Source: Chrysoperla carnea (Eukaryota; Arthropoda; Insecta; Neuroptera; Chrysopidae). Taken from it: DNA of 64,000 nt. Position 1 is the first letter of the stretch; each line of letters begins with the position of its first letter. The stretch lies in the NCBI RefSeq assembly GCF_905475395.1, contig NC_058338.1, positions 13,778,935-13,842,934 of the forward strand, given 5' to 3'. Positions 2,918 to 63,000 of the stretch are shown one piece after another. A model generated the notes under the pieces. That model had not been told where the DNA came from. It saw only the letters and a list, made by a program, of their open reading frames with translations, and ran no database searches. A program made the position numbers and the translations under genes.

Positions 2918-3185
2918 ATGAAAATAAAAAATGAAAATACATTCTCTATTTTGGTTTTGGGTCAATTGAATATTGTTTTATATCAAAATTTAATAGATTT
3001 TATGTCAATAAATTATTTAAAAGCGGAAATATCTAAAATTTCATCTCTTTCACTGGATAAAAATCTAGTACAAATTACTTATTTTCAAAGAAAGTTAAAA
3101 AATCGTCGAAGTTCTTTGAGTCAAGGAAACTATTGAACTAACATATAAAGAGCTGGTCAAACTATTAGAAGTTCATCTTATCATC
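2918..3185 (+). pseudogene. Degenerate gag-like retroelement remnant, 5' part
   Basis: A 72-codon open stretch followed by stops and then 'TYKELVKLLEVHL' in another frame. Both pieces resemble the capsid (retrotransposon gag) region of Ty3/gypsy elements, where a 'Y-x-E-L-V-x-x-L' segment precedes a 'P-K-x-N-V' segment. The remnant is interrupted at 3185 by the younger LTR element and resumes at 8267. Frameshifts and stops show it is dead. Confidence 0.45.
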
Positions 3186-5138
3186 TGAGACGATACTCAT
3201 ATTTGGTTTCACACATGGAGTTCGGCTTAGGCTACATTATACCCACCGAACAAAAAAAGAAAAAAATTTACAAAAAATTTACAAAAAAAAAAACAAAAAA
3301 ACAAAATGTCAGTAAAATATTTAAAAATTTATTTAAAATTAAAATACAATTTTTTTCATTACAAATCATAAAAATAAAAAAATGGCCGAAAGTGGATACC
3401 CGGATGGCCAGGCACACGACGCACAAACAGAGAATCGCACGCAGCATCGCAGGCGGTAAACACGGCGCGAAAGGTCGTGATTGGATCACGGCGGCACCAG
3501 GCACTAATAAAACAAAAAAACAATGAGTCAACAAATGACCTGATGGTTTCTTGATGAAAAAAATACTTTAACTTTAACCTTTGCATCGAGCAAGTAAAGA
3601 GCTCGGAATTATTATATTGATTCGTGATCAAAAAAAAAAAATAATCAATCGACATCGATTATTAAACAAGTAAAATAAAATCGACATTAATTAAAATTGG
3701 ACCGACATCGTGGATTTAAAAAAATTAATAAATCAACAACGATTAATAAACAGAAGTAAAATAAAATCGACATTAATTAAAATTGGACCGACATCGTGGA
3801 TTTAAAAAAAAAAAAATTAATAAATCAACAACGATTATTAAACAGAAGTAAAATCAAAAATCGAACTTTAATCAAATCGGACCAACATCGTAATTATAAT
3901 TAATGGATCGACAACGACTTATTAATCAGAAACAATAAAACAAAAAAAAAAACAACGACCGGTACTCACGAGTAGTGTCCTGGTGATACAAGTTTCGAGT
4001 GGACGACCGCATGGTTATTTCATCTTTTGTTGTTTGGAAATTCAACATCGCCCATCAGCGGCAACACCACCGCATGCAGGCCGATTCGATCAACACAAAT
4101 TATGGAAGAAAATCTGGTATACCTCGAGGATCACCCAGTGATTCCGCTGTGTGCTGCTGCGTTCTCTCCTGGCCGTCCGGTTGTTCAACCCCCGGTTCCA
4201 TTCGTGAATGACTATGTAAGTTGTATTTATCTTTTGCCTCTTTATCAATTAATTTGCCGGCCAAAAAGGACATATTCTAAAATAAATTGAAAAAAAATGA
4301 CATTAATAAAAGGTTGGAGGTGTAACAAACATTTTAAAATTAGGAAATCATATTAGTTAAGTTTTTTTAATGCGTGGTGATTCCTGGTGGATCTATTAGT
4401 CAAGCCGTCGAGTGGCCCTTGTCAATTTGGTGCTGGCCAATAGCCGCCTATTAACGACAAGGGTCAGCCACTCTCCATTTCGCGGCGCTAGGTGGTGGTG
4501 AAGACGATCTAAATTGAATCGAAGACCCATACACCTCGCCCGTGCTGTTGCGGCAAATGGCTCTTGTCCGAATATACATACATATTTTTATTCAACAAAA
4601 AAATAATATAATAAATGTCTGTATGCGCTTTTAATTTGGAAGGAAATTCACCAGGAACCACTGTTGTCAATGTTAGTACTAACGTATGTCCCCTTTTAAA
4701 CAAATATTAAATTTTTTTTTTTAATTTTTTTTCAAATACAAAATTCTTAGGTTAGGTGTCAAAATAAATTATGCTAAGTGTTTATTTTTGTTTACTATAC
4801 ATTTGATAAAAAAAATAAATAAATAAAATAAAATTGTGAATAGTAGAAACATTAAAGGAAATTTTACAAAAAAAAAAATTAAATGAACATAATTGAATTT
4901 AATTGAGATCACTTACGTTTTCTTTTTGTTAATCCAATCGTCGACACACAACACGTTGTATTCAATATCACTATTGACACTTTAAGTTGTAATACAGTAG
5001 AGCCAACTTCACATAACTAATATTGATTTAGTAGATCCTCGCTTGAATTTACGCGCCATAACCCGTCCGATCAACAAAAGACTTCCACTGCGACACCTTC
5101 ATAGTTCGTTTCTCTTACTTAAATTGAGAATCGTTTTA
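3186..5138 (+). repeat. 5' LTR (1,953 bp)
   Basis: Begins TGAGACGATACTC and ends GAGAATCGTTTTA. It contains about three tandem, degenerating copies of a roughly 86-bp unit (3640-3900; landmark GACCGACATCGTGG) in A-rich sequence. Short open frames inside (for example 3359-3655 on the minus strand) are identical in both LTRs and have no family resemblance, so I do not call them genes. Confidence 0.88.
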
Positions 5139-5156: not shown

Positions 5157-5346
5157 TAAATGGCGTAATTTTCAATCGTCGTTATCTAAGACAACTTGAA
5201 AATGAACAACGTATTAATTGTATAATCTTATAAAATTAAAATTTTCTTCAATTACTTTTAACTTTAATTAAGCTTAATTCTACAAATCCTTTTCTGTTTT
5301 CTATAACACTTACATATACAATCGTTGAACAATCGCGGAGTCTAAC

Positions 5347-5673
5347 ATGCCGGACACCAGGAGCGGACGCATATTCACACCCGCCACCAGCTGTAATCCA
5401 CAACCCGAGGTGACTTCTCCGGGCTTCGCAACGCCGCCAACAACAATGCCAGAACCCAGCGCACCGCCGCTGAATACAGTAGTCAACCAACTTCCATGGC
5501 TCGATTTCACGACGGCGTCTTCAACATCGACATCCTCAACGTCAACAGCCCCACCAACTTCGACACATCAATCTCCTCCATCACGTGTGTTTAACCCTAT
5601 AAGAACCCAAACCGAACTAAGTGCTGACATGCTGACAACCAACACCGTCTTCAGGCCATGGAGAACCAATTAA
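5347..5673 (+). CDS. Hypothetical 108-aa ORF in the LTR element (gag position)
   Basis: Open frame starting MPDTRSGR with a composition dominated by Pro, Ser and Thr (an S/T-rich tract near residues 58-75). It has no capsid domain or CCHC knuckle, so if it is a gag start then the rest has been deleted. It overlaps the next frame by 16 nt, which is compatible with a gag-pol arrangement brought close by deletion. Function unknown. Confidence 0.4.
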   Translation: MPDTRSGRIFTPATSCNPQPEVTSPGFATPPTTMPEPSAPPLNTVVNQLPWLDFTTASSTSTSSTSTAPPTSTHQSPPSRVFNPIRTQTELSADMLTTNTVFRPWRTN

Positions 5674-6180: not shown

Positions 6181-6302
6181 TACCACGTCACCAATCTCAT
6201 GTGAGCTCGAGTGCGTAGACAACTTGTACGCGATATAAAGCCCACATTGAAGCGTTAAGCCCTATAATGAAAGAGTAGAGGAAATGCCGTAGCATTTTAG
6301 CC

Positions 6303-6314
6303 AGTGGGGGTGGA
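6303..6314 (+). promoter_or_regulatory. Putative polypurine tract of the LTR element
   Basis: AGTGGGGGTGGA lies directly against the start of the 3' LTR, where plus-strand DNA synthesis is primed in LTR retrotransposons. It fixes the element's orientation as plus. Confidence 0.65.
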
Positions 6315-8266
6315 TGAGACGATACTCATATTTGGTTTCACACATGGAGTTCGGCTTAGGCTACATTATACCCACCGAACAAAAAAAGAAAAAAATTTAC
6401 AAAAAATTTACAAAAAAAAAAACAAAAAAACAAAATGTCAGTAAAATATTTAAAAATTTATTTAAAATTAAAATACAATTTTTTTCATTACAAATCATAA
6501 AAATAAAAAAATGGCCGAAAGTGGATACCCGGATGGCCAGGCACACGACGCACAAACAGAGAATCGCACGCAGCATCGCAGGCGGTAAACACGGCGCGAA
6601 AGGTCGTGATTGGATCACGGCGGCACCAGGCACTAATAAAACAAAAAAACAATGAGTCAACAAATGACCTGATGGTTTCTTGATGAAAAAAATACTTTAA
6701 CTTTAACCTTTGCATCGAGCAAGTAAAGAGCTCGGAATTATTATATTGATTCGTGATCAAAAAAAAAAATAATCAATCGACATCGATTATTAAACAAGTA
6801 AAATAAAATCGACATTAATTAAAATTGGACCGACATCGTGGATTTAAAAAAATTAATAAATCAACAACGATTAATAAACAGAAGTAAAATAAAATCGACA
6901 TTAATTAAAATTGGACCGACATCGTGGATTTAAAAAAAAAAAAATTAATAAATCAACAACGATTATTAAACAGAAGTAAAATCAAAAATCGAACTTTAAT
7001 CAAATCGGACCAACATCGTAATTATAATTAATGGATCGACAACGACTTATTAATCAGAAACAATAAAACAAAAAAAAAAACAACGACCGGTACTCACGAG
7101 TAGTGTCCTGGTGATACAAGTTTCGAGTGGACGACCGCATGGTTATTTCATCTTTTGTTGTTTGGAAATTCAACATCGCCCATCAGCGGCAACACCACCG
7201 CATGCAGGCCGATTCGATCAACACAAATTATGGAAGAAAATCTGGTATACCTCGAGGATCACCCAGTGATTCCGCTGTGTGCTGCTGCGTTCTCTCCTGG
7301 CCGTCCGGTTGTTCAACCCCCGGTTCCATTCGTGAATGACTATGTAAGTTGTATTTATCTTTTGCCTCTTTATCAATTAATTTGCCGGCCAAAAAGGACA
7401 TATTCTAAAATAAATTGAAAAAAAATGACATTAATAAAAGGTTGGAGGTGTAACAAACATTTTAAAATTAGGAAATCATATTAGTTAAGTTTTTTTAATG
7501 CGTGGTGATTCCTGGTGGATCTATTAGTCAAGCCGTCGAGTGGCCCTTGTCAATTTGGTGCTGGCCAATAGCCGCCTATTAACGACAAGGGTCAGCCACT
7601 CTCCATTTCGCGGCGCTAGGTGGTGGTGAAGACGATCTAAATTGAATCGAAGACCCATACACCTCGCCCGTGCTGTTGCGGCAAATGGCTCTTGTCCGAA
7701 TATACATACATATTTTTATTCAACAAAAAAATAATATAATAAATGTCTGTATGCGCTTTTAATTTGGAAGGAAATTCACCAGGAACCACTGTTGTCAATG
7801 TTAGTACTAACGTATGTCCCCTTTTAAACAAATATTAAATTTTTTTTTTTAATTTTTTTTCAAATACAAAATTCTTAGGTTAGGTGTCAAAATAAATTAT
7901 GCTAAGTGTTTATTTTTGTTTACTATACATTTGATAAAAAAAATAAATAAATAAAATAAAATTGTGAATAGTAGAAACATTAAAGGAAATTTTACAAAAA
8001 AAAAAATTAAATGAACATAATTGAATTTAATTGAGATCACTTACGTTTTCTTTTTGTTAATCCAATCGTCGACACACAACACGTTGTATTCAATATCACT
8101 ATTGACACTTTAAGTTGTAATACAGTAGAGCCAACTTCACATAACTAATATTGATTTAGTAGATCCTCGCTTGAATTTACGCGCCATAACCCGTCCGATC
8201 AACAAAAGACTTCCACTGCGACACCTTCATAGTTCGTTTCTCTTACTTAAATTGAGAATCGTTTTA
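6315..8266 (+). repeat. 3' LTR (1,952 bp)
   Basis: Collinear with the 5' LTR, offset 3,129 then 3,128 after a one-base change in an A-run near 3625/6750. It ends GTTTTA, followed by the CATC target duplicate. Confidence 0.88.
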
Positions 8267-9194: not shown

Positions 9195-9841
9195 CGGGGA
9201 ATACAGTGAAAATAAATGTTTATAATTAAAACATAAATACTCAAGTGTTATCAAGTTTACAAATAGAATTTTAAGCGATGAATCATCTTAGTTATCAGAG
9301 ACTACTTTACCGATCTATTCTCTGTTAGTTATGTTGTATAATGAATCCATCAAAAGTATCTTACTAATAAAGTAACTAAAATCCATTACAGGTATTGATA
9401 ATCGTACCATTATCGTTAAGAAACTATTAAAAATCTTTGTAACCCCTGGTGGAAAAAATATTTGAAGAAAGAATAAGAAATTCTGAAAAAGTCTTAGGAA
9501 CTTTGAATTTCTCAACGTTTTCGGACAAGTCTAATTCAGAGTTCTTAATACTTTTTTTAAGTTTCTAAGACTTTTTCAGAGTTTCCTAAGACTTATTATT
9601 TTTTCCACCAGGGTACACTAAACTCATTTGTAGAATTTAATCAATATCAAGGGAAGTCGGCAAATTTTGGATCGAATCAACGTATCTTTGGATAAAAAAG
9701 AGCTGAAAGAGTTTTTTTCCGTAAATTCTGTACACATACTTACCTATGTTTTATGTACCTATACTTAGCTAACACAGAATCCGTACCGATTTTAAAAAAC
9801 AATATACGTAAAATATATCTTAATTTTTCTTAGGTACAGAG

Positions 9842-11695
9842 ATGAGTGCCAAGCGTGTAGCTGTTGTAACGGGCAGTAACAAGGGCATTGGATATGCAAT
9901 TGTTAAAGGATTATGTGAGAAATTCAATGGGGTTGTTTACTTGACTGCTAGAGATGTTGAGCGCGGACAAGAAGCTGTTAAAAAGTTGAATAGTTTAGGT
10001 TTTAAACCAGAATTTCATCAATTGGATGTCAATGATGTTCCCAGTATTGATAAATTCCGTGACCATATTAAAGAAAAATATGGAGGAATTGATGTTCTTG
10101 TAAATAATGCTGTCATTGCATTTAAGGTAAGTTAAACCTTTTCCTTAAATAATTAAAATTCATTATTAAGCGAAAAATTTGACGTCATTACTATTTTATA
10201 AAATAATTAAACTAAGTTTAATATTTACTTTTGATAGGAAGTGGATTCAACGCCATTTGCTGTTCAAGCAGAGGTCACAATTGATGTTAATTATTTTGGT
10301 TTACTTCGTGTCTGTAACTCCTTATTCCCAATTTTGAGACCACATGCTCGTGTTGTAAATGTTTCTAGTGCTGTTGGTCATTTATCCTGTATTCGAAGCG
10401 TAGAATTACGTCAACAATTCGCTGACCGAAATTTATCTGAAGAAAAACTTTCTGTATTAATGAGAAAATTTGTTAGGTATATACATCTAATTTCTGGAAC
10501 TATTTTTTAGAACAATTATTCTTAAGTCTATTTTGCTCGACTTTTCACTTCTATCGAAATATATTATTACTTTCTTTTTTTTTGCCATAAGAGGTGAGAG
10601 TTTTGGCAAAAATAGGCCCTTTTTTATGTAGAAATAAATATATAGGATATCCCAGGAGTAACAGACGTCTTTGTTGCATCGTATAGAAGCTCTAAACTCG
10701 TACTTGAAACATTTCTAAGAATACTTTACATTAAATTACTTTTTTCCTTAAAGCCTTATTCAAACTGAATCTACCATAATCCTGTCCACAATCATTTTTA
10801 GATGTATTTACGGTTGAATTTTTCGCTTAGTAAATAATTTTGAATCAAAACGGTTACAAAAATGAAATAGATATCTCTGCTTTTAGTTAGGTACGAGATA
10901 CAGCTCCGTTTCCGGTTCAAGCTCAAGTAACAATTGAAGTCAATTATTTCGGTTTGATTCGTGTTTGTAATTCTTTATTTCCAATTTTAAAACCACATGC
11001 ACGTGTAGTTAATGTTTCTAGCTCTCGCGGTCATTTATTTCGTATTAAAACTGATGAACTCCGTCAAAAATTTGCTGATCCAAATTTAACAGAAGAAAAA
11101 CTTTCAACATTAATGCGACAATTTGTTGGGTATGTTTAGGAAATCTTAGAAATTCTACTTAGATTTCACAAAGTTTAATGTTATATTTTACATTTTTTTC
11201 AAACAAAAGTTTTGAGAAGAGATTAAACCTTCCCCGTCGACTCGATTACTATAGTTTATTACAATTTTTTGTTTAACAAAAATAATTATTATACTAAAAT
11301 GATTGTTTTCAAAGTTTGATCGATTTACGAAAGGAACGAAACATAATACAGCATGCGGTAAAATTTGAATTTCTTATTCTGATTTCAGTGATGCAAAAGA
11401 AGGTAAACATTTTGAAAGAGGTTGGGGGAATTCAGCGTATGTAGTATCCAAAGTGGGTGTAAGTGCTCTTACATTTATACAACAACGAGAAATGAAAACA
11501 CCAGGTGTAGTTATAAATGCTGTACATCCAGGATATGTTGATACTGATTTGACTAGCCATAAAGGTCATTTAACAATTGAACAAGGAGCTGAAGCACCAT
11601 TATTTTTAGCATTACAACCAGTTAGCGAAAATGAAATTAAAGGAAAATTTGTTTGGAATAATAAAACTGTTGTAGATTGGTATAGCAGAATGTAA
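9842..11695 (+). CDS. Carbonyl reductase [NADPH] 1-like SDR, gene 1 (3 coding exons, alternative exon 2)
   Basis: NADPH-dependent cytosolic short-chain dehydrogenase/reductase that reduces aldehydes, ketones and quinones. Exons: 9842-10126, 10238-10476 (2a), 11389-11695; 285+239+307 nt give 276 residues, the usual CBR1 length. Visible: cofactor motif TGSNKGIG (10-17), VLVNNA (85-90), catalytic Ser in VNVSS (about 138-139), Tyr192 and Lys196 in YVVSK. Family resemblance to animal CBR1 is strong, including FHQLD and the end of exon 1 (IAFK). The residue after NNA is Val, where CBR1 usually has Gly or Ala. A second, frame-compatible copy of exon 2 (10891-11129) lies in the following intron. Exons 1 and 3 are very similar to gene 2 at DNA level, with about 100 nt identical at 10011-10110. 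Confidence 0.92.
10891..11129 (+). CDS. Alternative exon 2 (2b) of carbonyl reductase gene 1
   Basis: 239 nt, the same length as exon 2a, with acceptor TTTTAGTTAG and donor GG|GTATGT. Phase is 0 in and 2 out, identical to 2a. It encodes a full alternative of residues 96-174, including the catalytic Ser segment (VNVSSS). Use of both copies (478 nt) or neither would shift the frame of exon 3, so the layout demands mutually exclusive splicing. 2b starts VRDTAPF, closer to animal CBR1 (V-x-D-x-x-P-F) than 2a. Alternatively it is a leftover of unequal recombination, but its frame is fully intact. Confidence 0.8.
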
Positions 11696-12957: not shown

Positions 12958-15167
12958 ATGTCAGGTGAGATTGGCAGTCGGCAACCACTTTAAAATTTCG
13001 CTTTAAGGATTTTTACAAGATTATTGATACATAATACCTTTCATGCTCGTCAATAATTAAAATTTCAAAAAATTATTTAAAACAATTATGTCTTTTTCTA
13101 AACATAAGTGTTTTTATACAGGGTGTACCATTTTAATATATTATGGGTAATAGATGGCTTTTTAGTTAGCCAATCAAAAAATAAAGTTGTGCAGAGTTTG
13201 GCGGGGGACATCATGTTCTCACATCAGATTGGACCTAGTTCTCCGGATTGCTAGATCCTAAAAGGTAACACATAGAATAACACTTTAAATTAGAAAGTTG
13301 ATCCTCATAAAACAACTAACATTTTATCGAAAATTGTTAGCTTTTGTAGAATATTGTAATAAATGGAAACAAAACACACTAGCTACAAAAAAATTATTTT
13401 GCCAAAAGTTATCAAGGACAATATAGGAAATTCGCCTGTGTCCATGACTTTGACCTAAAATTCTAGTTTCAAGGTCATTTGATTTTGATCTTCGAATGAT
13501 CTTAAAAATTTACCTGGACTTAAAAGTTATTAACACAAAGGAAAGAAATTTATTTTTCTTGATAACTTTTGTCAAAAAATTTTCTAAAGCTAGTGTATTT
13601 TCGATTAAATACAATAATGACTCGGAGATAATGAGTCGCATTAGCTCCGAAAGCCTACGATTTTCGAAAAAATGTTTTGAATAAAAAATGCCAGTATTTT
13701 TATGAGGATAAACTTTCTAATTTAAAGTATTACTCTATCTCTTACCTTTTAGGATCTAAATTAACTATTAAAGCAACCCGGAGAACTTGACCAATCTGAT
13801 GTCAGAACATGATGTCTCACATCAAACTCTATTTGCGTTGTTATTTTTTGATTGGCTAACTACAAAACCAGTTATTAGCCATAATAGATTAAAAAAGGTC
13901 CACCCTGCAACAACTGAGTGTAGGATGATCTAAAAAGTCTAAAAAAACTTCTTTGGCCTCCAAAAATTTACATCTTGAGGCTAGATTTTTACTTGGCTTA
14001 ATTTATCGTCTTCTCAAGGCCTTCATTGAAAAATTATCTTCTAATATTTGTATGTTCGAAATTACTCTTCAATAATAATGTAAATAATATTTTTTAGAAA
14101 AGAAAATGAGCGCTAAACGTGTAGCTGTTGTCACTGGCAGTAACAAAGGTATTGGATATGCGATTGTTAAAGGATTATGTGAGAAATTCGATGGCGTAGT
14201 TTACTTGACTGCTAGAAATATTGAACGTGGACAAGAAGCTGTGAAAAAATTAAACGGTTTAGGTTTTAAACCCGAATTTCATCAATTGGATGTCAATGAT
14301 GTTCCCAGTATTGATAAATTCCGTGACCATATTAAAGAAAAATATGGAGGAATTGATGTTCTTGTAAATAATGCCGCCATTGCTTTTAAGGTAAGTTAAG
14401 CTCTTAATTTATCACATTTAAATCATAAAAATTGATTACTTAACGAAAAATTTCTAATAATTTTGTTAGAATGAGGATACAACTCCTTTTGCTGTACAAG
14501 CTGAGGTCACAGTTGACGTTAATTATTTTGGTTTACTTCGGGTCTGTAAATCGTTGTTCCCAATTTTGAAACAACATGCTCGTGTTGTAAATCTTTCAAG
14601 TTCCGCTGGTCATCTTTTCCGTATTCCGAGCGCAGAATTACGGCAAAAATTTGCCGATCCAAATTTAACAGAAGAAAAACTTTCAACGTTAATGCGACAA
14701 TTTGTCAGGTATGCTTAATAGGAAACAGTAAAAGTCGTATTTACTTGGTTTGTTTGAGGAAAATATTATTAAAAATAATTTTAAAGTAAACGTGCAAACG
14801 AAATAAATGGGACTGAGAAACGTTGGATTTTAAAATTTGAACATTATATTTTGTTTTTAGTGATGCAAAAGAAGGTAAACATTATGAAAGAGGTTGGGGA
14901 AATTCAGCGTATGTAGTATCTAAAGTTGGTGTAAGTGCTCTTACATTTATACAACAACGGGAAATTAAAACACCAGGTGTAGTTGTGAATGCTGTACATC
15001 CAGGATATGTTGATACTGATATGACTAGCCATAAAGGTCCCTTAACAATTGAACAAGGCGCTGCAGCACCATTATTTTTGGCATTGCAACCAGTAGGTGA
15101 AAATGAAATCAAAGGAAAATATGTTTGGTGCGATAAAAAAATTGTCGATTGGTATAAAGAAATGTAA
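12958..15167 (+). CDS. Carbonyl reductase [NADPH] 1-like SDR, gene 2
   Basis: Core exons 14106-14390, 14470-14708 and 14861-15167 (285+239+307 nt, 276 aa from the inner Met). A mini-exon 12958-12964 (ATGTCAG, donor GTGAGA) would splice to acceptor TTTTTTAG at 14097 and add five in-frame residues (MSEKK) before the Met shared with gene 1; this fits the TATA box at 12869. Motifs: TGSNKGIG, VLVNNAA, VNLSSS, YVVSK, all intact. Single exon 2. Its 5' half is closest to exon 2a and its 3' half to exon 2b of gene 1. The intron at 12965-14097 holds a palindromic MITE. Function as for gene 1: NADPH-dependent carbonyl reduction in the cytosol. Confidence 0.9.
13119..13907. mobile_element. Palindromic MITE (family B), 0.8 kb
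   Basis: Ends CAGGGTGTACCATTTTAAT and ATTAAAAAAGGTCCACCCTG; arms of about 190 bp pair, and pairing continues inward (GTTATCAAGGACA versus TGATAACTTTTGTC), so the whole element can fold as one hairpin. It contains no transposase. Relatives are at 23695-24122, 37391-37597 and 55830-55895. It lies in intron 1 of carbonyl reductase gene 2. Confidence 0.75.
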
Positions 15168-19319: not shown

Positions 19320-22300
19320 CATACCGTAGTTTTTCCTAATGGTAAATCCACAAACGGAATATCCACAGGTGCATCACTAACAGTTTCTTTTGTCTCTGTA
19401 GGAGTTACTTGATTCGATTTCGGTTGGCTAGATGATATTGATGGAATTGTAATGTTCGTCTCTGTAGGAGTTACTTGATTCGATTTCGGTTGGCTAGATG
19501 ATGTTGATGGAATTGAAATATTCTCAGAGGATCTTTGTGTTGGTTTAACGTTTTCTTCCACAACTTCTTTCGATAGTACTTTTTCAACTTCTTTTGGTAA
19601 TACTGTATCATTATTTTTATTATTCTCTCTACTTAAACTAAGTAATTTTTCATTAAAATTTTCAAGATCATTTATTAATTGTACGCCTTTCTGCAATGCA
19701 TTTAGAATCTAAAATAGAAATTTTTGTTAATTATTTAACTTAAGTCACTTCATTTTAAACCTCCCTATTCAAAAAGAGGGGTTTTATAAGTTTGACCGCT
19801 ATGTGTGTGTGTCTTTTTTGCTTTTCGGTGGACAATTTTTATATACAGAGATGATTCTCCGTACCTCTACCCTCTATAAAATAAACATAGAATTTACTTA
19901 CCATTTTAAATTTAGGTTTAGAAGCCATACATTGATCTAAATATTTCGCTTGCGCCAATGTGAAAGGTTTATTTGGTAAATCATGTAATTTAATTTCAAC
20001 AAGGGCACGTGGAATATCTAATAATGATTGCGATAACATTTTAGTTTCATTGATATTGACTTCTTCTTTATTACCATAATCAATATATAATACGGTTGCT
20101 ATATTCGTATCATTGTCTATTGATAAGATTTCACCACGATACCATTGTTGATCTTCACTGTATTGAGCTGCTACACATTTTCCAATTTTTGCCAATTTTA
20201 AATTCATTGGCGCCACTAAAAAAAAGGAATAGGTTTTAAAAATAGTAACAGTGGTCAACAACTATTAGAATGCAATAATTTTTAAAACTGTTTACAATCT
20301 GCTCCTCGTTATATTTCTAGGCCTAGAAACGGAAAGTACTATACTAAAATCCTCGATCTTTTATATCTATATCTATTTCATATAACATACGAATAGATAT
20401 TTTCGACGATATGCACGTGGAGTTAAGAAATATGAAAGGTTATTTTCAATGTCCCACTATTTCGCTGCACTGTTTCGGTGTGAAGCGATTCATTATTAAA
20501 ATTGTACTGAATTTACGTTTCAAAAACATGTATAATCAACTCAATCCATTGAAAATGCAAATGTTGTTAAATGTTTGCATACCGACATAAAGGATGGTGC
20601 ACCCTGTATATATTGTTAAGTATGGAAAATTAAATAAATAATAGGGAATATTCATGAAATTTAAATTTGGTTCAAATATTTTTCTTCCGTGACTTTAATA
20701 AATATAAAAAAATACATGAATATACCCTATTAAAGTCCTTTATACTTACATTTTGAAACTGATTGAATTAACTCAGTAACTTTTTTTAAATGTTGTGCTG
20801 ATTCACGATATTTAACAAACACAGTTTGTTGTGATTCAATAAATGCAACCATTACAATTGATTCTGATGGTAAATTTACTTTTGGTATAATACCATCATA
20901 TTGCATAAAGCTTTGTTGTTGATTAGTCGCTGTATTATAATTTGTTTGATTATTATTTGTATTATAGATTTGTTGATTATTAAAATCTTTTTGTTGTCTA
21001 TAATTGGTATTTGAACTTTGTTGATTATCAAACGATTGGTTATTATTTCTATTATGCGTTTGTTGAGAATCAAATGGGCGGTTATTAATTTTATTACGAG
21101 TTTGTTGATTATCATATAATTGATTATTTCTATTATGTGTTTGTTGATTATCAAAATTTCTTTTTTGATTGTAATTTCGACCAGAATTGGATTGATTTTC
21201 ATTAACATCTGTTTGTTTAAAGTTTTTGTTTGGATTTGGTTGATTATCCACATTTTGTATACCATTTGAATCAATATGATTGGTAGAATCTTGTTTCATT
21301 GATAATATCCAACTAGATAATTTCAATTCACAAATATTTTCTTTTGTTTTTCGATCTTTTAATGTACATTTTACATATGGTATATTCGTTGTTCCTTCAA
21401 CATCCACTTCTGTTATTATAAAACTATACGTTTTATCCTAGTTGTTAAAAAAAATTATTATTTGTTTCATCTCTAATTTCTCTTTTAAAAGAGATCGTTT
21501 CTAAATAAAGCCTTATGTATATCTCCCGTTGTTAATTTGTTTTTACAAAAAATGAGTTTTATAAAACGTATTTCAATTTTCTATATATAATAGTTTTCTG
21601 ACTATAAAATTCTAAGGTTTAGTTACATTTAAGCTTGAGAATTTCACCATTAATTGACATGCGGTTCAAACAAACTTGAGCGTTGATTATAAAATTAAAA
21701 AGTTAATCTTACCTCCGCAAATAACTTCATAAATTGTTGTTGATTACATAATACATCGATGACTTCGCATAAACATGCAAAATCTGGAATTCTTACATGT
21801 TCTGGTAATAATTTACAACATTTTGTAACATTATTCATATAAATACCATCATCGATTAAAGCAATACGATATCCATTGCTTGCATTCAATTTATCCATCA
21901 CGTAACCACGAGACCAACCTTCATCAACATCATTTTCAACACAAACTAAATCACCAGCAACGGGCCTAAATTTTTTTAAATGTAAAATAAGTGTTGTAAG
22001 AAGATAGCGTTTCAATTAATCGATAAAAATCGATACAGAAAATCTCATAACTTACTGAATATATTCTGTTGGATACTTTTCCCAAATATTCTGTATTGCT
22101 TGAACATAATTTGAAAAATCATCACCCATAATTGTCAGTTGGGCTATACATGACTTTGAGTCAACAACAGTTTTCAATTTTAATGTGCCTCTATGCGCTA
22201 ACGATAAAGAGTTTATAATACATTCGCGTTTATCATAAACCTTTTTGCCGGGCGTAGCAGATTGCTTAGAATTCAAACTTTTGTTAGCTTGTGTAAATGA

Positions 22301-28901: not shown

Positions 28902-31137
28902 ATGGTTTTCTATTTAAAAGTATTGTGTATTTGTATTTTAAATATTTCTTGTAAATTCTATTTTGTGTATGCTATTGATGATTCGTGTAAGTGATTTTCA
29001 ATTAATTTGTTTTCCTTTACAAAATTTTCCAAAACCAAAATGAAAAAATAAACATATATACCTACGTTTTATTTTTTTTGTATGACCTTATAATTTATTT
29101 AAAGTATGATTTTTAAATTAACCAAGGTTTTTTTGATTTTAAAACGGCGACAAAATTGTTTATTATCATCGTGCTTCAATGCTTACATTCAATGAGACAA
29201 AAAAGAAAACTTGCAATTTAAGTAATTTTTTTGGTTTTAAATTAATAATTTCAATTTGATATTAATTATTAATAAAGAAGAGTTATATTTTTGAATAAAT
29301 AGTAGTGAGGTATTTAAACCCGTGGAGGCTGTGAACCAATCGGAATCACGCTAAATTTACATTTTTCAGTTTGTTTCTATGGAAAATTACGTTTAGTTAG
29401 ACAAACCACTAATCATTTTGCATGTTATTTTATCATTTCTCCGTGCGATGGCGTTGCTAAAACGATGTGTTGACGTCACTGGCGTTTGAATTTATAGTTT
29501 AGAAAAGCCATTTTCAAATGTAAAATTTTATGAAAAATTAATTAAAAAATTTAGTTATTATTATTATTTTTTTAATATTATCATTTTTAGCTCCCGAAAG
29601 TCATCCAAATTACGATGTAACATTACATCAAAATTGGAAATTGGTAAATTCAGCCGACTGTGGTGCGAGTGCTTCTGATCGCATTATTGGTGGGGTGAAT
29701 GCATCGTTGGGTTCATATCCATGGATTGCACGAATTGGATATTCGGGGAGTGGTCTCAAATCAGTACAATTTCGTTGTGGTGGCTCTTTGATAAGTGAGT
29801 GGTATGTGGTCACAGCTGCTCATTGTGTCACAAACCTTCCAAATGGCATGGAATTGTAAGTAAAAGTTTTATTCACTTGCTATGGAATTAAAGTAAGAGA
29901 TATTATGTTATAATGAAAAGCACCCCTCAGAATTGAATACGTCTATATTAGAAAATAATGTTTAAAATTTTGTCTTCAAGCTTTTAATTCAATGCTTATA
30001 AAATTATGATTTGAGTGGCAAGTTTAAAATGCAGGTGGAAAAACAAATCTGTAATCATTTTTTCTCATCTTTAATTGTTTATAGCTTTTACATTATTTTA
30101 TGTGGGAAAAACGCTTCTGGCACATTCCGAATCCAACGAGCTATTACACGTATTTTTACGACCAGTTTTTCTATATTTCTCCAATTTGAATTTGTCAACT
30201 ATGACTTCTTAGGAATGATATAACTCTCTATTAAAAAATTTTTTTGCTTTAATTTAAAAAAAAATAAATTTATTCAAAATGTTTCGAGATTTTGTAATAT
30301 TCAATTTTGTTTTTTTTACTCTAATATTAGAACAACGATTCGATTGGGTGAACATGATACGGAAACGGATGTGGATTGTGATAAGAATATGTGTGCAGCA
30401 CTACCTCAAGATTTTACGCCAACCAAATTAATTGTTCATCAAGATTATGGTAATCCAAAATATAAAAATGATATTGCACTAATTCGTTTGGATCGAGGTG
30501 TTGACATGAATGGTAAGTTAAAGTTTCGGCTCCGGGTAACAGCAATAGTTTTTTCCCCGCTAAAATGTCTCTTTTATTTAATATACTGATATGCGACGAT
30601 TTTTTTAAACGTTTTTTATTGTTTTTGACTCTCTGACAGGGTATTTCAACAATTAACTCAGTCGATTATTTGTTTTCACTTGTTTAGTAACATATTTATT
30701 ATTTTGTGTATGTAGGCTGGGTAAATCCATTATGCCTTCCATATGGTGAGCTATTAACCACAGATCTTGTAGCGAAAGTGGGTGAAGTCGCTGGTTGGGG
30801 TATATACGATCTAGCAAATCCACAGCCAAGTCGTTTTTTACAGTATGTTAAATTACCAATTGTACGACTTGAACAATGTATGGAACACTTTAAACATCAT
30901 GCCACCCTCGATGCTCGTCAAATGTGTGTCGGCGGTCGAGTGGGTCGTGATTCTTGTGGAGGTGATAGTGGTGGGCCTTTAATGAAAGTCGAAGCTGTAG
31001 ATGGACCACCAAAATATTTTTTTATTGGTGTTGTATCATTTGGAGCGAAACATTGTGGTAAAACTGCAATGCCTGCAGTATACACAAGAATTTCAGCGTA
31101 TGTAGATTGGATATTGGATAATATGCTACCGCTTTAA
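28902..31137 (+). CDS. Secreted trypsin-like serine protease 1, no CLIP domain (317 aa)
   Basis: Exons 28902-28986, 29591-29855, 30331-30512, 30716-31137 (954 nt, in frame). Signal peptide on exon 1 (MVFYLKVLCICILNIS). Short pro-segment with one Cys (52), probably disulfide-linked to the protease domain, then the activation site DR|IIGG (59/60). Catalytic triad His106 (TAAHC), Asp164 (NDIAL), Ser262 (GDSGGP); Asp six before the Ser predicts cleavage after Arg/Lys. The S1-pocket wall reads P-A-V-Y instead of P-G-V-Y (Ala at chymotrypsin position 226). Unlike its CLIP neighbours it lacks the intron between the activation site and TAAHC. An extra loop Cys pair (C133, C138) is shared with the CLIP genes, so it likely derives from a CLIP protease. 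Role unknown; extracellular cascade or digestion are both possible. Confidence 0.9.
29312..29395. repeat. Dispersed repeat fragment (family C)
   Basis: Segment with CCAATCGGAATCACGCTAAAT in intron 1 of protease 1; an inverted copy (TTTAGCGTGATTCCGATTGG) is at 45398-45482. Confidence 0.6.
30635..30690 (+). repeat. Family A repeat end fragment
   Basis: TTTCAACAATTAACTCAGTC...TTTTCACTTGTTTA matches the 3' end of the copies at 12160 and 16133. In the last intron of protease 1. Confidence 0.6.
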
Positions 31138-36900: not shown

Positions 36901-39900
36901 GTGGCCAAAATGTATACTGTGGCTACACCCCTACAAAAACCAATGAAAAAATAGTTAAAGTGAAGATCCAAGGACGTGATTTTTTCAAAATTTACTCCAT
37001 TTAACTAGAATTAAACATTATATATACATACATAAAATTCGTGTAATTTACCTACTACCATTGTTCTTTATTTGTAAACAAAGATTACTGATTATGAATA
37101 TGGAAATCCCAAAATGTATTTACATTATTTAGAAATAATTGGAGATTAATAATTATATTTCATGTAATATAAATATTTATTTAAAATATTTTTTAAATTA
37201 GTAAATTTAATTTTCTCTAAAAACTTAAGTATTGCTTTGATTTACCCTACCCCGACTTAATCTTCCTGTTTTATATCGCTTTATACATTATCTCTAATAT
37301 ACCTTTACGATTTATGAGGTTGTTGCTGTTGTTATCTATCGCGCAAGTTCTTGGTATTACTGTCGATACTCAAGAAATCTGTAAGTGTTGTTCTATCTCT
37401 TACCTTTTAGGAACTAAATTGACTTTTAAAGCAACCCGGAAAACTGGGTCCAACCTCAAGTCAGAACATGCTGTCCTCCATCAAACCCTGCAACTTTTGT
37501 TTAAGTATTTTTTGGATTGTTTAACTACAAAAAGATCTATAAGCCATTATCGATTAAAATGGTCCACTCTGTATAATTTCAACCGTTACAATATAATTAT
37601 CATTTCCGACAAAACAATTTGTTACCAGAATTAATTGTATCATTAAACCGCGAAGATCCGTTCACAAAAATAAAATTATTTAAGTATTTTTAATTAAATT
37701 AAAATTAATTTCTATATGCTTTACGCATATTTCTTTCTGAAATAAAACTTACTTTTTTTGTTTATAGAATGGATAACGGAAGATGAGGATACTTGCCAAA
37801 CTCCAAATTATGATGCTGGACTTTGTATTAACATCAGAAATTGCCCACCATTATTGAACCTTTTACGTACTAAACCAATTCCACGTGAAACATCACAATT
37901 TTTACGTCAATCACAATGTGGTTTTGAAGGACGTAATCCAAAAGTATGTTGTCCAAATAGTGGTCAAACAATAGGACGTCTAACAACACCAAAACCTCCA
38001 ACACCAGAGTATCAAGAAGGACAAGCAGTATATTCACGTTTGTTACCAGATGTATCAGTATGCGGTTTGGGTACAAATAATCGTATTTATGGTGGTGAAG
38101 TTGCCGAAATTGATGACTTCCCATGGATGGCGTTATTAGAGTACAAAAAACGTATGTGGCTATGTTTTCCAAAATAATATTATAGGGACTTGTAGGAACT
38201 GGAGTTCAAATTTTTCCATAACCGTATAGCTAGGTACCTCTACCGATGATATTTAGCAAAAGAGTAAGCTAGAATGCCAAGGGTAGAGAAGTTATAGATG
38301 TTCTAAAAAGAATTGCCCAACGGTTTTGATATCTTGAGTGGACGATAAATAATAATTATTTACGATACAAGTAGTTAAGAATTATTAAGGATGGATTCTT
38401 TTGAAATGAACACACTGTATAAACGCACTCTTTTAACTTTTTCAGGAGAAGTTCTTCTGTAGTTAATGCTGGATAACCGAAAATGAGATTAATCTCTCAA
38501 TAAACTTGTCTAAGTGAGAATTAAAAACCTCTAGATTTGGTGGTCTCAACTGGAGCGTTATAACTGCGGTTGCTTGTAACCTCAATCGCTTTAGAACAGA
38601 CTTTCATGGTTTCATTCCATAAATCTAAAACCCTTGTTTTATAATGAAAGTCGAATATAATTTTTCTTTCCATAAATGAGACATAATTTCTAAGCTCTAG
38701 GACAATTTTAGTATTAACAAGACAGGATATTTTTTATACATAATAAAGTATTTTTATAATCTCTAAACCACCGAAAATACGTTACAATTAAAAGCATTAA
38801 TGATAAGATACTTATCACAATTTTCTTATCTAATATTTTTTATTTCTCAGCAAATGGTCGTGGTTTTTATTGCGGTGGTGTTTTAATTAACAAACGATAT
38901 ATTTTAACAGCGGCACATTGTGTTGTTGGCAAAGATATTCCAAAAACTTGGAAATTGTAAGTTTAGAAAGAATTTAAAATCTAATTAATTATTTTAAATA
39001 ATTTATGAATTTCGCTTTTTGTTTGCAGAGATAGTGTACGTTTAGGTGAATATGATACATCCACAGATGTAGATTGTGTACAAGATAATTATCAGGGTAG
39101 TCAATATTGTTCTGCACCACCAGTAAATGTAAAAATCGAACAAGCAATTCCACATCCAAATTACAAACCAAGAGACCAGAATCAGCATAATGATATAGCA
39201 TTGTTGCGTTTGGCTGAAGATGTTGAATTTACAGGTAAAAAAATTAACTTGCATACTTTTGCAAACAACTTTTTAAAACATTGAGAAAATCTTCCCGCTA
39301 GACAGAAGCAAAACAGATCGGATTTAAATTTAGAAATCTAAGTGAATATTTAAAATTGTTCAATAGATTAAGACGAAATTTTGATATTTGTCCAAGTTTA
39401 AAGTTAGAAGTACAACTCATTTTTGGATTTTGGATCCATTCTGAAAAATAAAATGATGATAAGATCGTGATCTTTGATCATATTCTCAAAAATAATTATT
39501 TTCAAACTTTTGAATGCACCTTAATACGTATTGATAATTGACGAGATATTACATGCCCGTGTGCAGGAATTATCAAAAGGGGCTCAAAATTTGATTCATC
39601 ATGTAAGGTCATAAAGTCAATAATAACAAGAAACTCTTTTTTCGAGTAAGAGAACTTTTTAATATGTCAAAATGTGATATTCAGTCACTGTTTTTAAATA
39701 ACTTAATTCTGCGAGGTACAGCAAATTTTTTCCCCAAAACTTTGTGCACATCGATATCCACCTACACCGCGATGTATATTGAGTGAGGCTAAATCATTTA
39801 CCCGACTGTCAGACATTGTCGATCTAAGATATGTTTTGCGTTCATTCGTCGCTGTTGTCACAGGTAAAACTGCCAGAACGCTTTTAGTTTAACAGGTAAC

Positions 39901-51300: not shown

Positions 51301-54300
51301 CTAGAAATGGCAGACAGTGTTAATTACTGGAGAGTAATGACTTTAGGCTTATACACGACCACACAGTAATGAATTTCATTCCCTTAAATAAGCTAATGGA
51401 AATCAGTTGCCAGTTTTAGTGCGAACGTGGTGAAGACAAAGAGGGGATTGATGAAGCGTTTAAGAAAGATCATATTTGCCCAGTTTTGTGCTTCGATTTT
51501 CCTGGTCAATGAACTTTGCCTTTATAATATCACAAGCAGCTTAGATATCAAATTTAATTTTAAACTTACTTAAAAATGTAACCGTTCGAGCGCGTTTCGA
51601 CCCATACATGATGTCTAATTAGGTGCAATTTATTCCTAAATCTGATATTTTTTAATATTTATTCTCATTTCTTATCTAAATTTTGCATCTCTTGACTTGA
51701 TCAAATACATTTTCCAATTAACTTCTAAACGCTAGCAATATATCAAAACCTAACTAGGATTTAGTTCTATATCTATTATTTTAGTGTTTGGAAGAAGTTC
51801 TACTATAATTATTACAAATATTTATAAAATTTATATAAACAGTTTAATTATTATTGATAAAATTCAAGGATCTTAAATTAGGAGGGTTATTCTTGTTATA
51901 AAAATGACCCCAGCAGATAACATATTCTGAAAATTAAAACATCTTTTTCTTGATACTTAAGTAAAAATATTAAAGGCAGTACCTATCATAAAACTCGAAA
52001 TATATTTTACTTTTTAGACTGAAACCTAAATTTTGGTTTAAAATTAGAAATCGTCCAGCGAAACGAGCTGGTAACTGCTATCTTTATCAATTATAGCCTA
52101 TGTGATATTCTGATGTATCAGCTACATTCATAAGTTTCTTTAAAATCCATCCAGTAGTTTTCAAAATCGTCCAAGAGGTAACTGCTAGCGTGTGATGTTA
52201 TGGGCTATCCAAAATTCAACACTAAAATAATTTTATAATTCGAACCAGAAGTTTAGCGTATTTTTAGACGTATTTCAATGTTTTAAGTCCTTTGATGCCT
52301 GTTTTTACCCAAAAGTTTTATAAACATCCATCTCTTCCATATGTGTTCACACATTTACCTCAAATATCTCTCTCTTTGTTAACTTGAAGAAATATTAATT
52401 GGAAATCCTTAGCAAACTACTAATCTCTTCTACCAAAAAAATTCCTCCGAATATGTTAAGAAGTAGAGTATGTTACTATACAATTTAATCGATATAATTT
52501 TTTTTGCAGAACCACAAAGTACGTGTCAAACCCCAAGTAATCAACCCGGTCGTTGCATCAATATCAAACAATGTCCGCAATTATTACAAGTATTACGAAA
52601 GCCAAAACCATTACCCCAGAGTGATATAGATTTATTACGTGAATCACAATGTGGATTCGATGAGCAAAATCCCAGAGTTCCTAAAGTCTGTTGTCCCACA
52701 GACACAAATGACGGCAATGATGAAAACTCACCGCCAGATGTTACACAACATCGAAATGTTGGACGAATAAACGGTAGAAACTGTGGTACAATTAATAATG
52801 ATAGAATTTTTGGTGGTAATAAAACAAATTTATTTGAATTTCCGTGGATGGCTTTAATTGCATATCAAACAAGTAAGTATTTTTAGATAATAAGTTAAAC
52901 CATGTTTGAATTGGGAAAAGTTTGAGATCAAAAACTTGAACATGATGATTGGTTGCTCAGCATTTTATGACAGGGATATGAGAAATAATATAATTCTTAT
53001 ATCGCTAATTTTAATTTTTTCTCCGAATCATGACTCTCTTACTAAGAATAAACAAGGCTTCTAATTTTTTCAAAATTCCTTATATCTTTCATTTAAATTG
53101 AGTCTAGATAACAATAATTAATCGGCTTGGAATCGTTAACAAAGTTTTATGGATTTTCAGATGGAAGATTATCATTTCGATGTGGAGGGACCTTAATTAA
53201 TGACCGATATGTATTAACAGCAGCTCATTGTATTACTAATTTACCAACGGGACGAGTATTGTAAGTTCTAAACTATTATAGAATATTTTTTAAACTAAGA
53301 CCGATGCTAAGGACGTTTTTTTTAAAGAAAAAGCAAAGGAGGGGTGTCGATAAACCTCATTATCGCCGCAGATAACGGCAATAAAATCGTTGACTTGTTT
53401 TTTCGTTATTCTGGGACGAAAATGAAGCCTTATCAATCTCCTCAATGGATGCAGAGCAAACATATTTCTCAAAATTATGCATATTATGTTAATTTATATA
53501 CAGGTTTTCTTGAAATTCACTGGTGGTCAAAGCATGGTTTTAAACTAAATAGTTAGGACTCTTGTTAATAGGCCAACATTTTTTGTTATAAAATCGCCAA
53601 AAGCTCAAAAATAAAAACCAATTAATCAAAAGATAAAACAGAAAATTGTTAGTGCTTTTTGGTTACTCATCATTGAGAAAAAATATCGACCTGAAACTAA
53701 TACTCGCCTACGACTTATAAATGTTATTTCTTAAACTTAAAATTTTAGAGCTGGCGTTCGATTAGGTGAACATAATATTGAAACTGACATAGATTGCCAA
53801 AAAATTGATAGAAATAAAGAAGAATGTGCGCCTCCTGTCCAAGATTTTACAATTGAAGAAGTCATTCCACATCCACAATATTCTCCTACCAAATTTACAA
53901 ATGATGTCGGATTATTGAAGTTAGGAGCAACACCTAATTTTACAAAAAGTATGCAAAAACAAAAGAAATAAACTTTAAACCATGTTCTAAATTATCAAAT
54001 CTTTTATTTTATAGAAAATATAGGAACTATATGTTTACCGGTGGGTTCTTTAGCTGATTTTGTGGATGATGCGGGAATTGTAGCAGGCTGGGGTGCAACA
54101 GAAACTGGTAAGTTATCATCGTCATTAATATATGAAAACAATTAGCATGAAATTTAAAGTTAACAATTTTAATCGCTTCAATTTTTGGTAGATTCTTTTG
54201 CGCTTTGACGATCTATGTCTTCTAAAAAAAAATCAAATATTGATAATTAAAATATCTTTGTCTAATAACTGTTTATACAGATCCTTTGAGTGCTGAATTA

Positions 54301-60097: not shown

Positions 60098-63000
60098 ATG
60101 TTAATGAATGATTTTATTATAATTGTATGTATTTTATTAAATACCAATGGTGAGTTACATTCAGTTTTAAGTCGGTCATAAGAGACATTTTTAATCGTTC
60201 AATTATATATTTTTAAGTAACTTACCTACGTCATTAAATATGCCTTAAGGTATTTATTATGATTTAAAATTTAACTCAAAAATAGTAATGATTGTTTTGA
60301 AAAGAAACAAGGTTAAAGGTCGTTTTAAATCATATAGAATAGAAGAGTATAGGAAATCTTAATTATTATTTATTATCTCTATTGGCGTCATATGTGTGAA
60401 GGAAATATGGGGGACATTGTTATAAGTTATTATTTTCATTATTATATATAATTCTTTCGATTAATTGTTGAATAAGGCTTTGTGGTTTGTAATAAAATTT
60501 CCATTTTCTTAAGGAAAAATTATTAGTTTTTTTGGTGAATCACAATTTAGTCATCATATTAAGTCAAGTGTGTGATCCAGTTTACATCTGTGCAGATAAG
60601 AAACATATAATGAAGAAAATAGCATAAAATACATTGTGTCCGTGACTCGATGAGCATAGCTTAAGAGCGTATTCTTTGGACAATTTTAAGTCGAAAGTGC
60701 CTTGTATACTTTAGTCTAAAATCAATTGTTAAATAGTACAACAAAATTAAATTAAATATCATAGTAAAAAAGAAAAAATTAATGCATCTTTGAAATTTTC
60801 CACAGTTTCCACAAAAAAGTCGACCTCTCAGGGGCGTACCTAACTCTTATTTTGGGGAACTTTTAATCAGATTTTTACAAATTACAAAAAAACTATGCAG
60901 TAAATGAAAAAAAAGTAGAAATACAAGTTCTAGCTGAAATATTTTTGCAGGTTTTCGTTTTTATTCAATTTTTCTAGATTCAAAATTGACCGATTTATCG
61001 CCTTTAATCCGATTTAACATCCCCTTTTATACGTGAGGATGTCTCCAAGTATTTTCTGGAATATTTTTTTGTTTTTTTTACAATGTTTCACATAACCACT
61101 CAACTACCGGGCGTATCTAATTTTGGGCGTTCCTAAAAGTAATTCCCAAGATGAAGACTGACGAAGACTGGGATTCTGACATTTGATTTTTTTCCCTATT
61201 AATGTATGAATCAATTAAAATTGCTTATTTGAAAATGAGGACACCATAAAAATCACGCTCAGCTTGTAATTGTAGCTTTAGCTTTACAATTAAAAGATAT
61301 AATTCGACAATTTTTTGATACATTTTGGTATAGGCAATATATATACATATATATTTTTATTTTCTTTTTGTTGTAAAATCCTCTGATTCAGTTAAGTTGA
61401 CGCCAATCTAATTTACTTGAAAAAACTAGAAATTCTTGTTACGTTCATGGTGAGTAGTATTATTAAATATCACTCAGGATAAATTCAAGGTAAAATTTAT
61501 ATCAACATTATATTTGCTTACATTCAATGAATATACCTTCCTATAGTTAGATTTTAGAGCAGGCGCTAGATAGAGTTGAGTGTAAAGTTCACCGTTTTTG
61601 AGCTATTAACAGTTTTATGATTGGAAAAACTCCAGAAAGGTTATTTTTAAAGCTGAAAATAAATGCAAATAAATTAAATTTTTGAGCATCACCGTTTTAA
61701 GAGTCACCATTTTATAACTTTATTGTGTGCCCTAAACTTTATTGTGTGTCTCTTTATCCAAATCCGCATTGCTCATAGAGGTGGAAGCGAGTTTCTCTCT
61801 GTATTACTCGTATTTTTTGTTGTCACTGTCTTACTCGTATTTTAGATACAGAAGTATGAGGATTTCTCTAAGGGCAAACATGGCTTAGACTCTAAGCCAT
61901 GTTTGCCTATGCCTGGTATAGAGCGTTGTATCCAAACGAATTCATATTTGGTATGAAGAACTGTTTTTTACAGTGTATACACGCCAACTTTATCTGTCTC
62001 TGTCTGCTTCTCAAGAGCTGCTATACGCGCCTACTTTATCTGTTCTTTGCTCTAATGCGACCAGGCGTTTGGCCGCGACTTTACAGCTCTATGGTATTAT
62101 CTCTAATTAATCTTGTAATTAATCCAATCATTTCAAGACAAAATAGTGAACGATTTGATTTTTCCAGGCATATTAGCTGCACCACAATCACCCATAGCCA
62201 CATGCCCAGAACCAACAAGATGTATGAAAATTACCGAATGTGAAAGCGAACAATTAAACACGAATTTTATGTTTCCATGTGAAATTTCAACAAAAAATGG
62301 AAAAAAATCTGATGCATTAACTGTATGCTGTAATAAAAAAATTGAGTTACATGTCGTTCAGTTAGAAAATACTACTTCTCCAACAATTATTCCACCGCCC
62401 ATAATTACGCGATCAAATGAAAGCAATATATCCATAAAGGATGGCGAGTTAAAACCTTCTATACCAACAACAACAAACTCCAGTAATTCATCGAAAATAA
62501 ATCAAACATTAGATTTCAGTGAGGATGATAGTTTATTTCCAATTGATTGTGGATTAGGTTTGGGAAATCGTATATCCAATGGTGTGAATGCAACGATTGG
62601 GGAACATCCTTGGATGGCTTTACTTGGATATACAAGTAAGTTGATAAATTAAAATACAAAGGAAATAGGGAGAGATCCTAAAATAAGAAGTTTCTTTGAT
62701 TATTTGAATATTTTTTTGGAGAATAAAAATAGAAAAATGGTAAATCATAAATAATTTTGAGTGTAACATATATAACATTTTTAATTGTGCCGTAATCTTA
62801 AAATTGATGAATATTTATTGAGGACGATAGTCAAATAAGAAGATTATTGAATAAAAATGAAAAAATCATTTTATCTGATACTTAAAGAACCTTACAAATT
62901 GAAATTTTCAAGATCGTCCTCTTTTTTTTTGACGCATTACTAAAATTTTTTTAGGTCTCCTGAAAGAGAAGTTCCTGGCTATAAAAATTTTGTGAACCTA

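Follow-up and report, generated by a model that had tools for sequence, protein, structure and literature searches.

How does a gene that carries two interchangeable copies of one internal exon ensure that only one of them enters each mRNA? The question is raised by a carbonyl reductase gene, here called g1, in a window of 64,000 nucleotides (the whole stretch of DNA analysed) of the lacewing Chrysoperla carnea, positions 13,778,935 to 13,842,934 of NC_058338.1. This contig, C2, is 100,744,152 bases long; the genome searched comprises 559 Mb (559,487,470 bases) in 337 contigs. The original prediction, made from the letters of the window, was that exons 2a and 2b of g1 form a mutually exclusive pair. 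Such use now finds support in the reading frames, in the layout of a paralogue on contig C6, in the pattern of selection and in complementary intron elements. We regard it as reasonably probable that 2a and 2b are mutually exclusive, that they arose by duplication before the gene was copied between C2 and C6, and that the choice between them is made through a helix formed by the introns.

All coding exons of g1 lie on the plus strand. The coding part of exon 1 (9842-10126; 285 nt, 95 codons, phase 0) is followed by exon 2a (10238-10476), exon 2b (10891-11129) and the coding part of exon 3 including the stop codon (11389-11695), which contains the catalytic Tyr and Lys (YVVSK) and the substrate-binding loop region. 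As had been claimed, both middle exons are exactly 239 nt long, and translation of the exon combinations bears out that each enters in phase 0 and leaves in phase 2. They are flanked by AG and GT, contain no in-frame stop, and agree at 76.6% of DNA and 73% of protein positions. The pair is thus real: homologous, of equal length and open. Joined as 1-2a-3 or 1-2b-3, the exons encode proteins of 276 amino acids with a single terminal stop, whereas 1-2a-2b-3 runs into a stop at codon 188, which lies within 2b, some 200 nt ahead of the last junction. The earlier statement that the frame admits only one copy of exon 2 is therefore correct, and it can be refined: skipping both copies (1-3) also shifts the frame, with a stop at codon 96.

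The same arrangement exists elsewhere in the genome. A protein search returned 19 matches from 27 candidates, 11 of them in three CBR1-type genes and 8 weak ones outside these genes (E 6.8e-7 to 6.8e-4). Besides g1, the three genes are its tandem neighbour g2, which has an intact frame and one exon 2 and starts 2.4 kb past the g1 stop (14106-15167), and a paralogue on contig C6, which is probably the X chromosome. In the coordinates of the C6 locus (L009), the paralogue consists of exon 1 (2256-2540), exon 2a (5309-5547, 239 nt), exon 2b (7379-7617, 239 nt) and exon 3 (9235-9541). It has the 1-2a-2b-3 layout of g1, and both of its exon 2 copies are open. Adjoining homologous internal exons of 239 nt with phases 0 and 2 are thus found in both genes, as is typical of tandem-duplicated mutually exclusive exons. 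When the translations of all exons were compared by tblastn with the window, L009 and two further loci (L010 and L011), only the known exons were found at E < 0.1. These results bear on the idea that the g1 pair stems from misassembly or from the collapse of two tandem genes. The proximity of g2 speaks for it, but 2a and 2b differ by 23%, the same order is present on another chromosome in a form diverged from g1, and tblastn detected no further exon 1 or exon 3 in the interval separating 2a from 2b, so that we give this explanation hardly any credence. Chance or artefact is unlikely given the C6 copy.

By inspection, all four exon 2 copies of g1 and C6 are bounded by AG and GT. The donors read GTAAGT, GTATAT (2a) and GTATGT (2b) in g1, and GTGAGT, GTATTA (2a) and GTAGGT (2b) in C6. 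The splice sites had been called good; this holds as far as AG/GT dinucleotides in a plausible context go, and the donors of 2a and 2b are uneven, in g1 and C6 alike. Two simple ways of enforcing exclusive use can be set aside. The intron between 2a and 2b (414 nt in g1, 1831 nt in C6) rules out steric exclusion by a short intron, and incompatibility of U2 and U12 spliceosomes is not supported: when inspected against the U12 donor consensus, no donor of either gene fitted it.

The exon pair most likely predates the copying of the gene. Compared between g1 and C6, the 2b copies agree at 87.9% and the 2a copies at 80.8% of DNA positions, more than 2a and 2b of the same gene do (76.6% in g1, 74.5% in C6). 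Synonymous divergence (dS) follows the same order, with 0.27 for 2b-2b, 0.52 for 2a-2a and 0.85-0.86 for 2a against 2b of one gene. In an unrooted tree of the five exon 2 copies the two 2b copies were separated from the rest with a bootstrap of 100, and a tree pairing 2a with 2b within genes was rejected by the approximately unbiased (AU) test (p 0.0004); this indicates that the exon duplicated before the gene did. Independent origin of the exon pairs in g1 and C6 would predict the rejected tree. One residue agrees with it: at CBR1 position 137 the exon 2 copies of g1 share a Val and those of C6 an Ile, contrary to the exon tree, a pattern that chance or within-gene conversion would also give. 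Set against the bootstrap and the AU test, independent origin appears extremely improbable. For the branching order of g1, g2 and C6 the distances of exon 1 and exon 3 disagree, and three placements of g2 exon 2 fall in the 95% set.

Nonsynonymous change between g1 and C6 is lower than synonymous change for 2a (Fisher p 0.0002) and for 2b (p 0.011). This excess of synonymous change in both pairs, together with the open frames and AG/GT borders of both copies in two genes, argues against the view that just one exon is used and that the tandem duplication left the other behind as a silent relic. In favour of a relic it can be said that the use of both exons is predicted from genomic sequence, and that g2 has an intact frame with a single exon 2; we nevertheless consider a relic quite improbable, and prefer the reading that both exons are in use.

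What would the choice of exon mean for the protein? By its matches and motifs, the g1 product is a monomeric short-chain dehydrogenase/reductase (SDR) of the CBR1 type. Isoform b matched human CBR1 (PDB 1wma) over residues 4-272 with E 4.9e-76 and PDB 2hrb with E 9.6e-73, and the Pfam family PF00106 was recognized in isoforms a and b with E 5.5e-35 and 2.9e-34, respectively. The catalytic residues Ser139, Tyr193 and Lys197 (YxxxK), whose numbering and roles in CBR1 are taken from the part of PMC2741203 that describes them, are kept in the alignment and in all five translations. Since the alignment of isoform b with CBR1 is free of gaps up to residue 142, the human numbering is valid that far. 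Exons 2a and 2b do encode alternative versions of the segment with the catalytic Ser, as had been proposed, and the segment also spans position 141. The latter, which is Met141 in CBR1 and Gln142 in CBR3, is counted in the same passages among three positions critical for specificity; it is occupied by V in 2a and R in 2b of g1, and by A and C in 2a and 2b of C6. In all, at 13 of the 79 complete codons of exon 2 no state is shared between the 2a pair and the 2b pair (lacewing positions 96, 97, 103, 107, 118, 140, 141, 146, 148, 149, 150, 155 and 172). The two other specificity positions, 229 and 235 (Trp229 and Ala235 in CBR1; PMC2741203), have their lacewing counterparts in the part encoded by exon 3. 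The expression "substrate-loop variants" used in the original prediction is for this reason loose: Ser and position 141 are exchanged with the exon, but the loop residues are not. It must also be weighed against a functional switch that in CBR1, according to the same source, Met141Gln or Met141Ala alone caused a modest loss of activity and combinations had larger effects, so that a swap at 141 need not by itself alter the substrates much. A different substrate preference of isoforms a and b is put forward as a prediction.

The frame would penalize double inclusion after splicing; the introns contain a candidate for an earlier control. An inverted-repeat scan of g1 returned 18 pairs, the top one joining 10155-10179 in intron 1 with 10817-10841 before 2b (88% complementary). 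In their wider extent, the docking-like arm (10153-10183, plus strand) ends 54 nt before exon 2a and the selector-like arm (10813-10843, plus strand) lies upstream of 2b; the 31 positions form 25 Watson-Crick and 4 G-U pairs, and the duplex of the 29- and 30-nt arms was calculated at -24.6 kcal/mol. With strict scoring, none of 2000 dinucleotide shuffles of introns 1 and 2 yielded a helix as good.

Homologous arms are retained in C6, where they form 16 bp and an outer helix of 5 bp, with a duplex energy of -19.1 kcal/mol. Near the exons no stem scores better, and an equal arose in 5 of 2000 shuffles for stretches of 111 x 414 nt and in 2 of 500 shuffles for stretches of 200 x 500 nt. The two genes agree in each arm at 22 of 25 positions (88%), compared with 45-69% in seven other intron stretches. 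When exact words of at least 11 nt common to g1 and C6 were listed, the longest in intron 1 (15 nt) was the core of the docking arm (10166-10180) and the sole word in intron 2 (13 nt) was the core of the selector arm (10817-10829), the remaining ones being two 11-nt matches in intron 1 and intron 3. These two core words are complementary: the 13-mer equals the reverse complement of a stretch within the 15-mer. One base pair has changed on both sides, from A-U in g1 (10155/10841) to G-C in C6 (L009 5227/7331), and swapping arms between the genes gave weaker duplexes (-16.0 and -17.4 kcal/mol) than either same-gene pair. The position is also kept: in both genes 58 nt separate the end of the 25-nt docking arm from 2a, and between the selector arm and 2b there are 49 and 47 nt. 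Thus, in g1 and C6 alike a conserved element of intron 1 is complementary to another conserved one beside a variable exon, the configuration known from docking/selector control. The arms are unlikely to be part of a transposon, as the 559 Mb contain 26 copies of the 15-nt core against 9 of a reversed control, which is above the control but not high-copy.

Several other pairings were considered. A second stem around 2b, as a bidirectional model would have it, was not supported: the best one in g1 had 11 bp (intron 2 x 3) and was matched in 207 of 500 shuffles, and the stems seen in C6, which carry no shuffle control, lie elsewhere. Pairing of intron 1 with intron 3 of g1 showed nothing unusual. 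No selector was recognized before 2a, the stretches preceding 2a and 2b not being significantly alike (464, 391, 169 and 118 of 500 shuffles). Pairing of the 2a donor with 10798-10824 was dropped since no counterpart was seen by eye in C6.

A number of observations weigh against the preferred account, control by the helix in particular, or at least temper it. The pairing is supported by two genes of one genome and by a single two-sided change. The C6 helix is shorter than that of g1; it is still the best one over the full long introns, yet 8 of 30 shuffles scored as high. With a looser scoring scheme, the C6 pairing did not reach significance (128 of 300 and 243 of 300 shuffles), whereas g1 was equalled in none of 300; the loose scan merged AT-rich flanks, and the strict scan was run after its result had been seen. 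Among the 25 longest of 429 repeat pairs in L009 there are longer, less complementary arm pairs that join the same introns. The docking arm also matches 14 nt in intron 3 of g1 (189 of 2000 shuffles, not significant). The selection test for 2b, with its p of 0.011, is a modest one. Finally, a single selector was found, rather than the competing selectors that docking/selector control would lead one to expect, and consequently no element found explains how 2b is skipped when 2a is used.

These points lend some weight to an explanation without a helix, in which exclusivity would come from the frame, from decay of double-exon transcripts and from protein splicing factors, and the arms would be conserved protein-binding elements or a coincidence. 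The early stop after double inclusion, the single selector, and the weaker C6 helix, unexceptional over full introns or under looser scoring, are what it would lead one to expect. It does not account for the mutual complementarity of the two longest conserved intron words, for the base pair changed on both sides, or for the absence of an equal among the 2000 shuffles of g1. On balance we find this explanation unlikely, though deserving of attention, and return to choice through the intron helix.

The exon anatomy, the frames, the age order, the synonymous excess and the complementarity of the arms with its retention can be read directly from the DNA; from here on the account is a proposal. The middle exon of g1 would have been duplicated in tandem, and the whole gene then copied between C2 and C6. 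In the pre-mRNA 10153-10183 would pair with 10813-10843, placing 2a and its own splice sites in a loop. With the helix closed, the exon 1 donor would come to lie beside the 2b acceptor and 2b would be chosen; with the helix open or masked, the nearer 2a acceptor would be taken and 2a joined to exon 3. In either case one exon 2 copy would enter each mRNA. Transcripts with both exons would be removed by nonsense-mediated decay as a backstop, since their stop is well upstream of the last junction. The two enzymes would share the nucleotide-binding part, the catalytic Tyr and Lys and the substrate loop, and differ around the catalytic Ser and at position 141. We infer exclusive use of 2a and 2b, and likewise that both exons appear in mRNA, that the helix acts as the switch, that double-exon transcripts decay and that the isoforms prefer different substrates.

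The neighbour g2 may show how such a switch is lost. Its exon 1 (14106-14390), single exon 2 (14470-14708) and exon 3 (14861-15167) are on the plus strand. The exon 2 is mostly 2a-like and becomes 2b-like at its 3' end: at 16 diagnostic sites it has 12 a-type and 4 b-type states, the last three sites being b-type (permutation p 0.019). As it is nearer to 2a, g2 most likely lost 2b. The evidence that this exon is a fusion of 2a and 2b is only suggestive, since the flank just 3' of it shows no preference for 2b over 2a. Intron 1 of g2 contains a docking-like element (14427-14453, plus strand) whose core lacks one G and which could pair with the selectors of g1 and C6 at -16.4 and -12.5 kcal/mol; no selector was found in g2. 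Decay of the g2 docking element can be claimed weakly at best. Taken together, the three genes allow a broader and more tentative picture, which we hold to be slightly less likely than not: a detoxification-type reductase whose substrate range would be switched by a single long-range helix, with the switch carried whole to a second chromosome and lost in g2 by recombination between 2a and 2b, leaving a docking site without a partner.

The intron between 2a and 2b of g1 also contains a short dispersed genomic repeat of about 80-90 nt (10681-10773, plus strand), which has at least 43 other matches genome-wide, 40 of 1706 candidates having been scored. Relatives of it (79-82%) lie just upstream of the C6 gene in reverse orientation (L009 1911-2090), and the 2a-2b intron of C6 has nothing beyond a 19-nt match; the repeat is probably not part of the exon switch. 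Intron 1 of C6 contains a 100-nt inverted repeat (L009 3064-3163 and 3210-3309, 99% complementary) that is probably a recent small mobile element. Elsewhere in the window, exons for CLIP-domain and trypsin-like proteases extend over 30224-62652, with Pfam CLIP matches at 37746-38177 and 52467-52886 and a Trypsin match at 30691-31137, and may form a tandem array of clip-domain serine protease genes; no Pfam match was obtained for the open reading frame (ORF) 62119-62652. A Tudor-domain exon is located on the minus strand at 19839-20261, and minus-strand ORFs near it may belong to the same gene. The translations of ORFs 3149-3526 and 6293-6655 are identical over their last ~112 residues, and the two are likely a repeated mobile-element fragment.

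The original prediction had known of no common description of such a pair in CBR1-type genes, and in open-licence PMC papers, a search that did not extend to RefSeq isoform annotation, we found none of mutually exclusive exons in carbonyl reductase genes or, judging by the papers' listing, in SDR genes, none of exon duplication in carbonyl reductase genes, and nothing on a lacewing carbonyl reductase. Papers that mention both mutually exclusive exons and carbonyl reductase do so in unconnected contexts, and those listed by a broader search dealt with such exons in general. In the sections concerned, PMC12807931 lists CBR1 in an expression table unrelated to mutually exclusive exons, and the excerpted text of a C. 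carnea venom-gene paper (PMC12758981) lacks the words "reductase" and "dehydrogenase" and names public long-read and tissue RNA data (PRJNA731104), with Iso-Seq from eggs, from three larval instars and from both adult sexes. If the proposal is true, a small enzyme gene in which a single docking element and a single selector govern two exons would make a minimal test case for the rise and decay of such switches, and the sister gene that retains the layout and the neighbour without it would add to its value. The swapped segment would cover a known specificity position in enzymes that, according to the part of PMC2741203 consulted here, act on xenobiotics, in a predator described in an excerpt of PMC10116181 as used in biological control.

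Mutually exclusive exons controlled by RNA structure have been worked out, as an excerpt of PMC6071210 relates, in genes that include Dscam1, 14-3-3 zeta, Mhc and MRP1. As outlined there and in part of PMC8042237, the exon 6 cluster of Dscam1 resembles g1 in several ways: the variable exons are homologous, the intron that follows the constitutive exon on the upstream side contains a docking-like element, a selector-like element precedes a variable exon, and the helix of the two would loop out whatever exon lies in between. It differs in having 48 exons with a selector for each, in contrast to two exons and one selector found in g1, which is a metabolic enzyme gene. PKM, in the portion of PMC5620227 that deals with it, is likewise a metabolic enzyme gene in which one of two exons is chosen, but it belongs to another enzyme family, and for g1 the switch proposed is intronic pairing. 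With human CBR1 and CBR3 (PMC2741203, same part) g1 shares the near full-length match of isoform b, Ser139 and the YxxxK motif; in humans, however, specificity is split between two genes, whereas a single lacewing gene would yield two forms through the choice of exon. Mutually exclusive exons as such are already known; what appears to be new is their occurrence in this gene family, and the complementary intron arms are a new element beyond the earlier observation of the exon pair.
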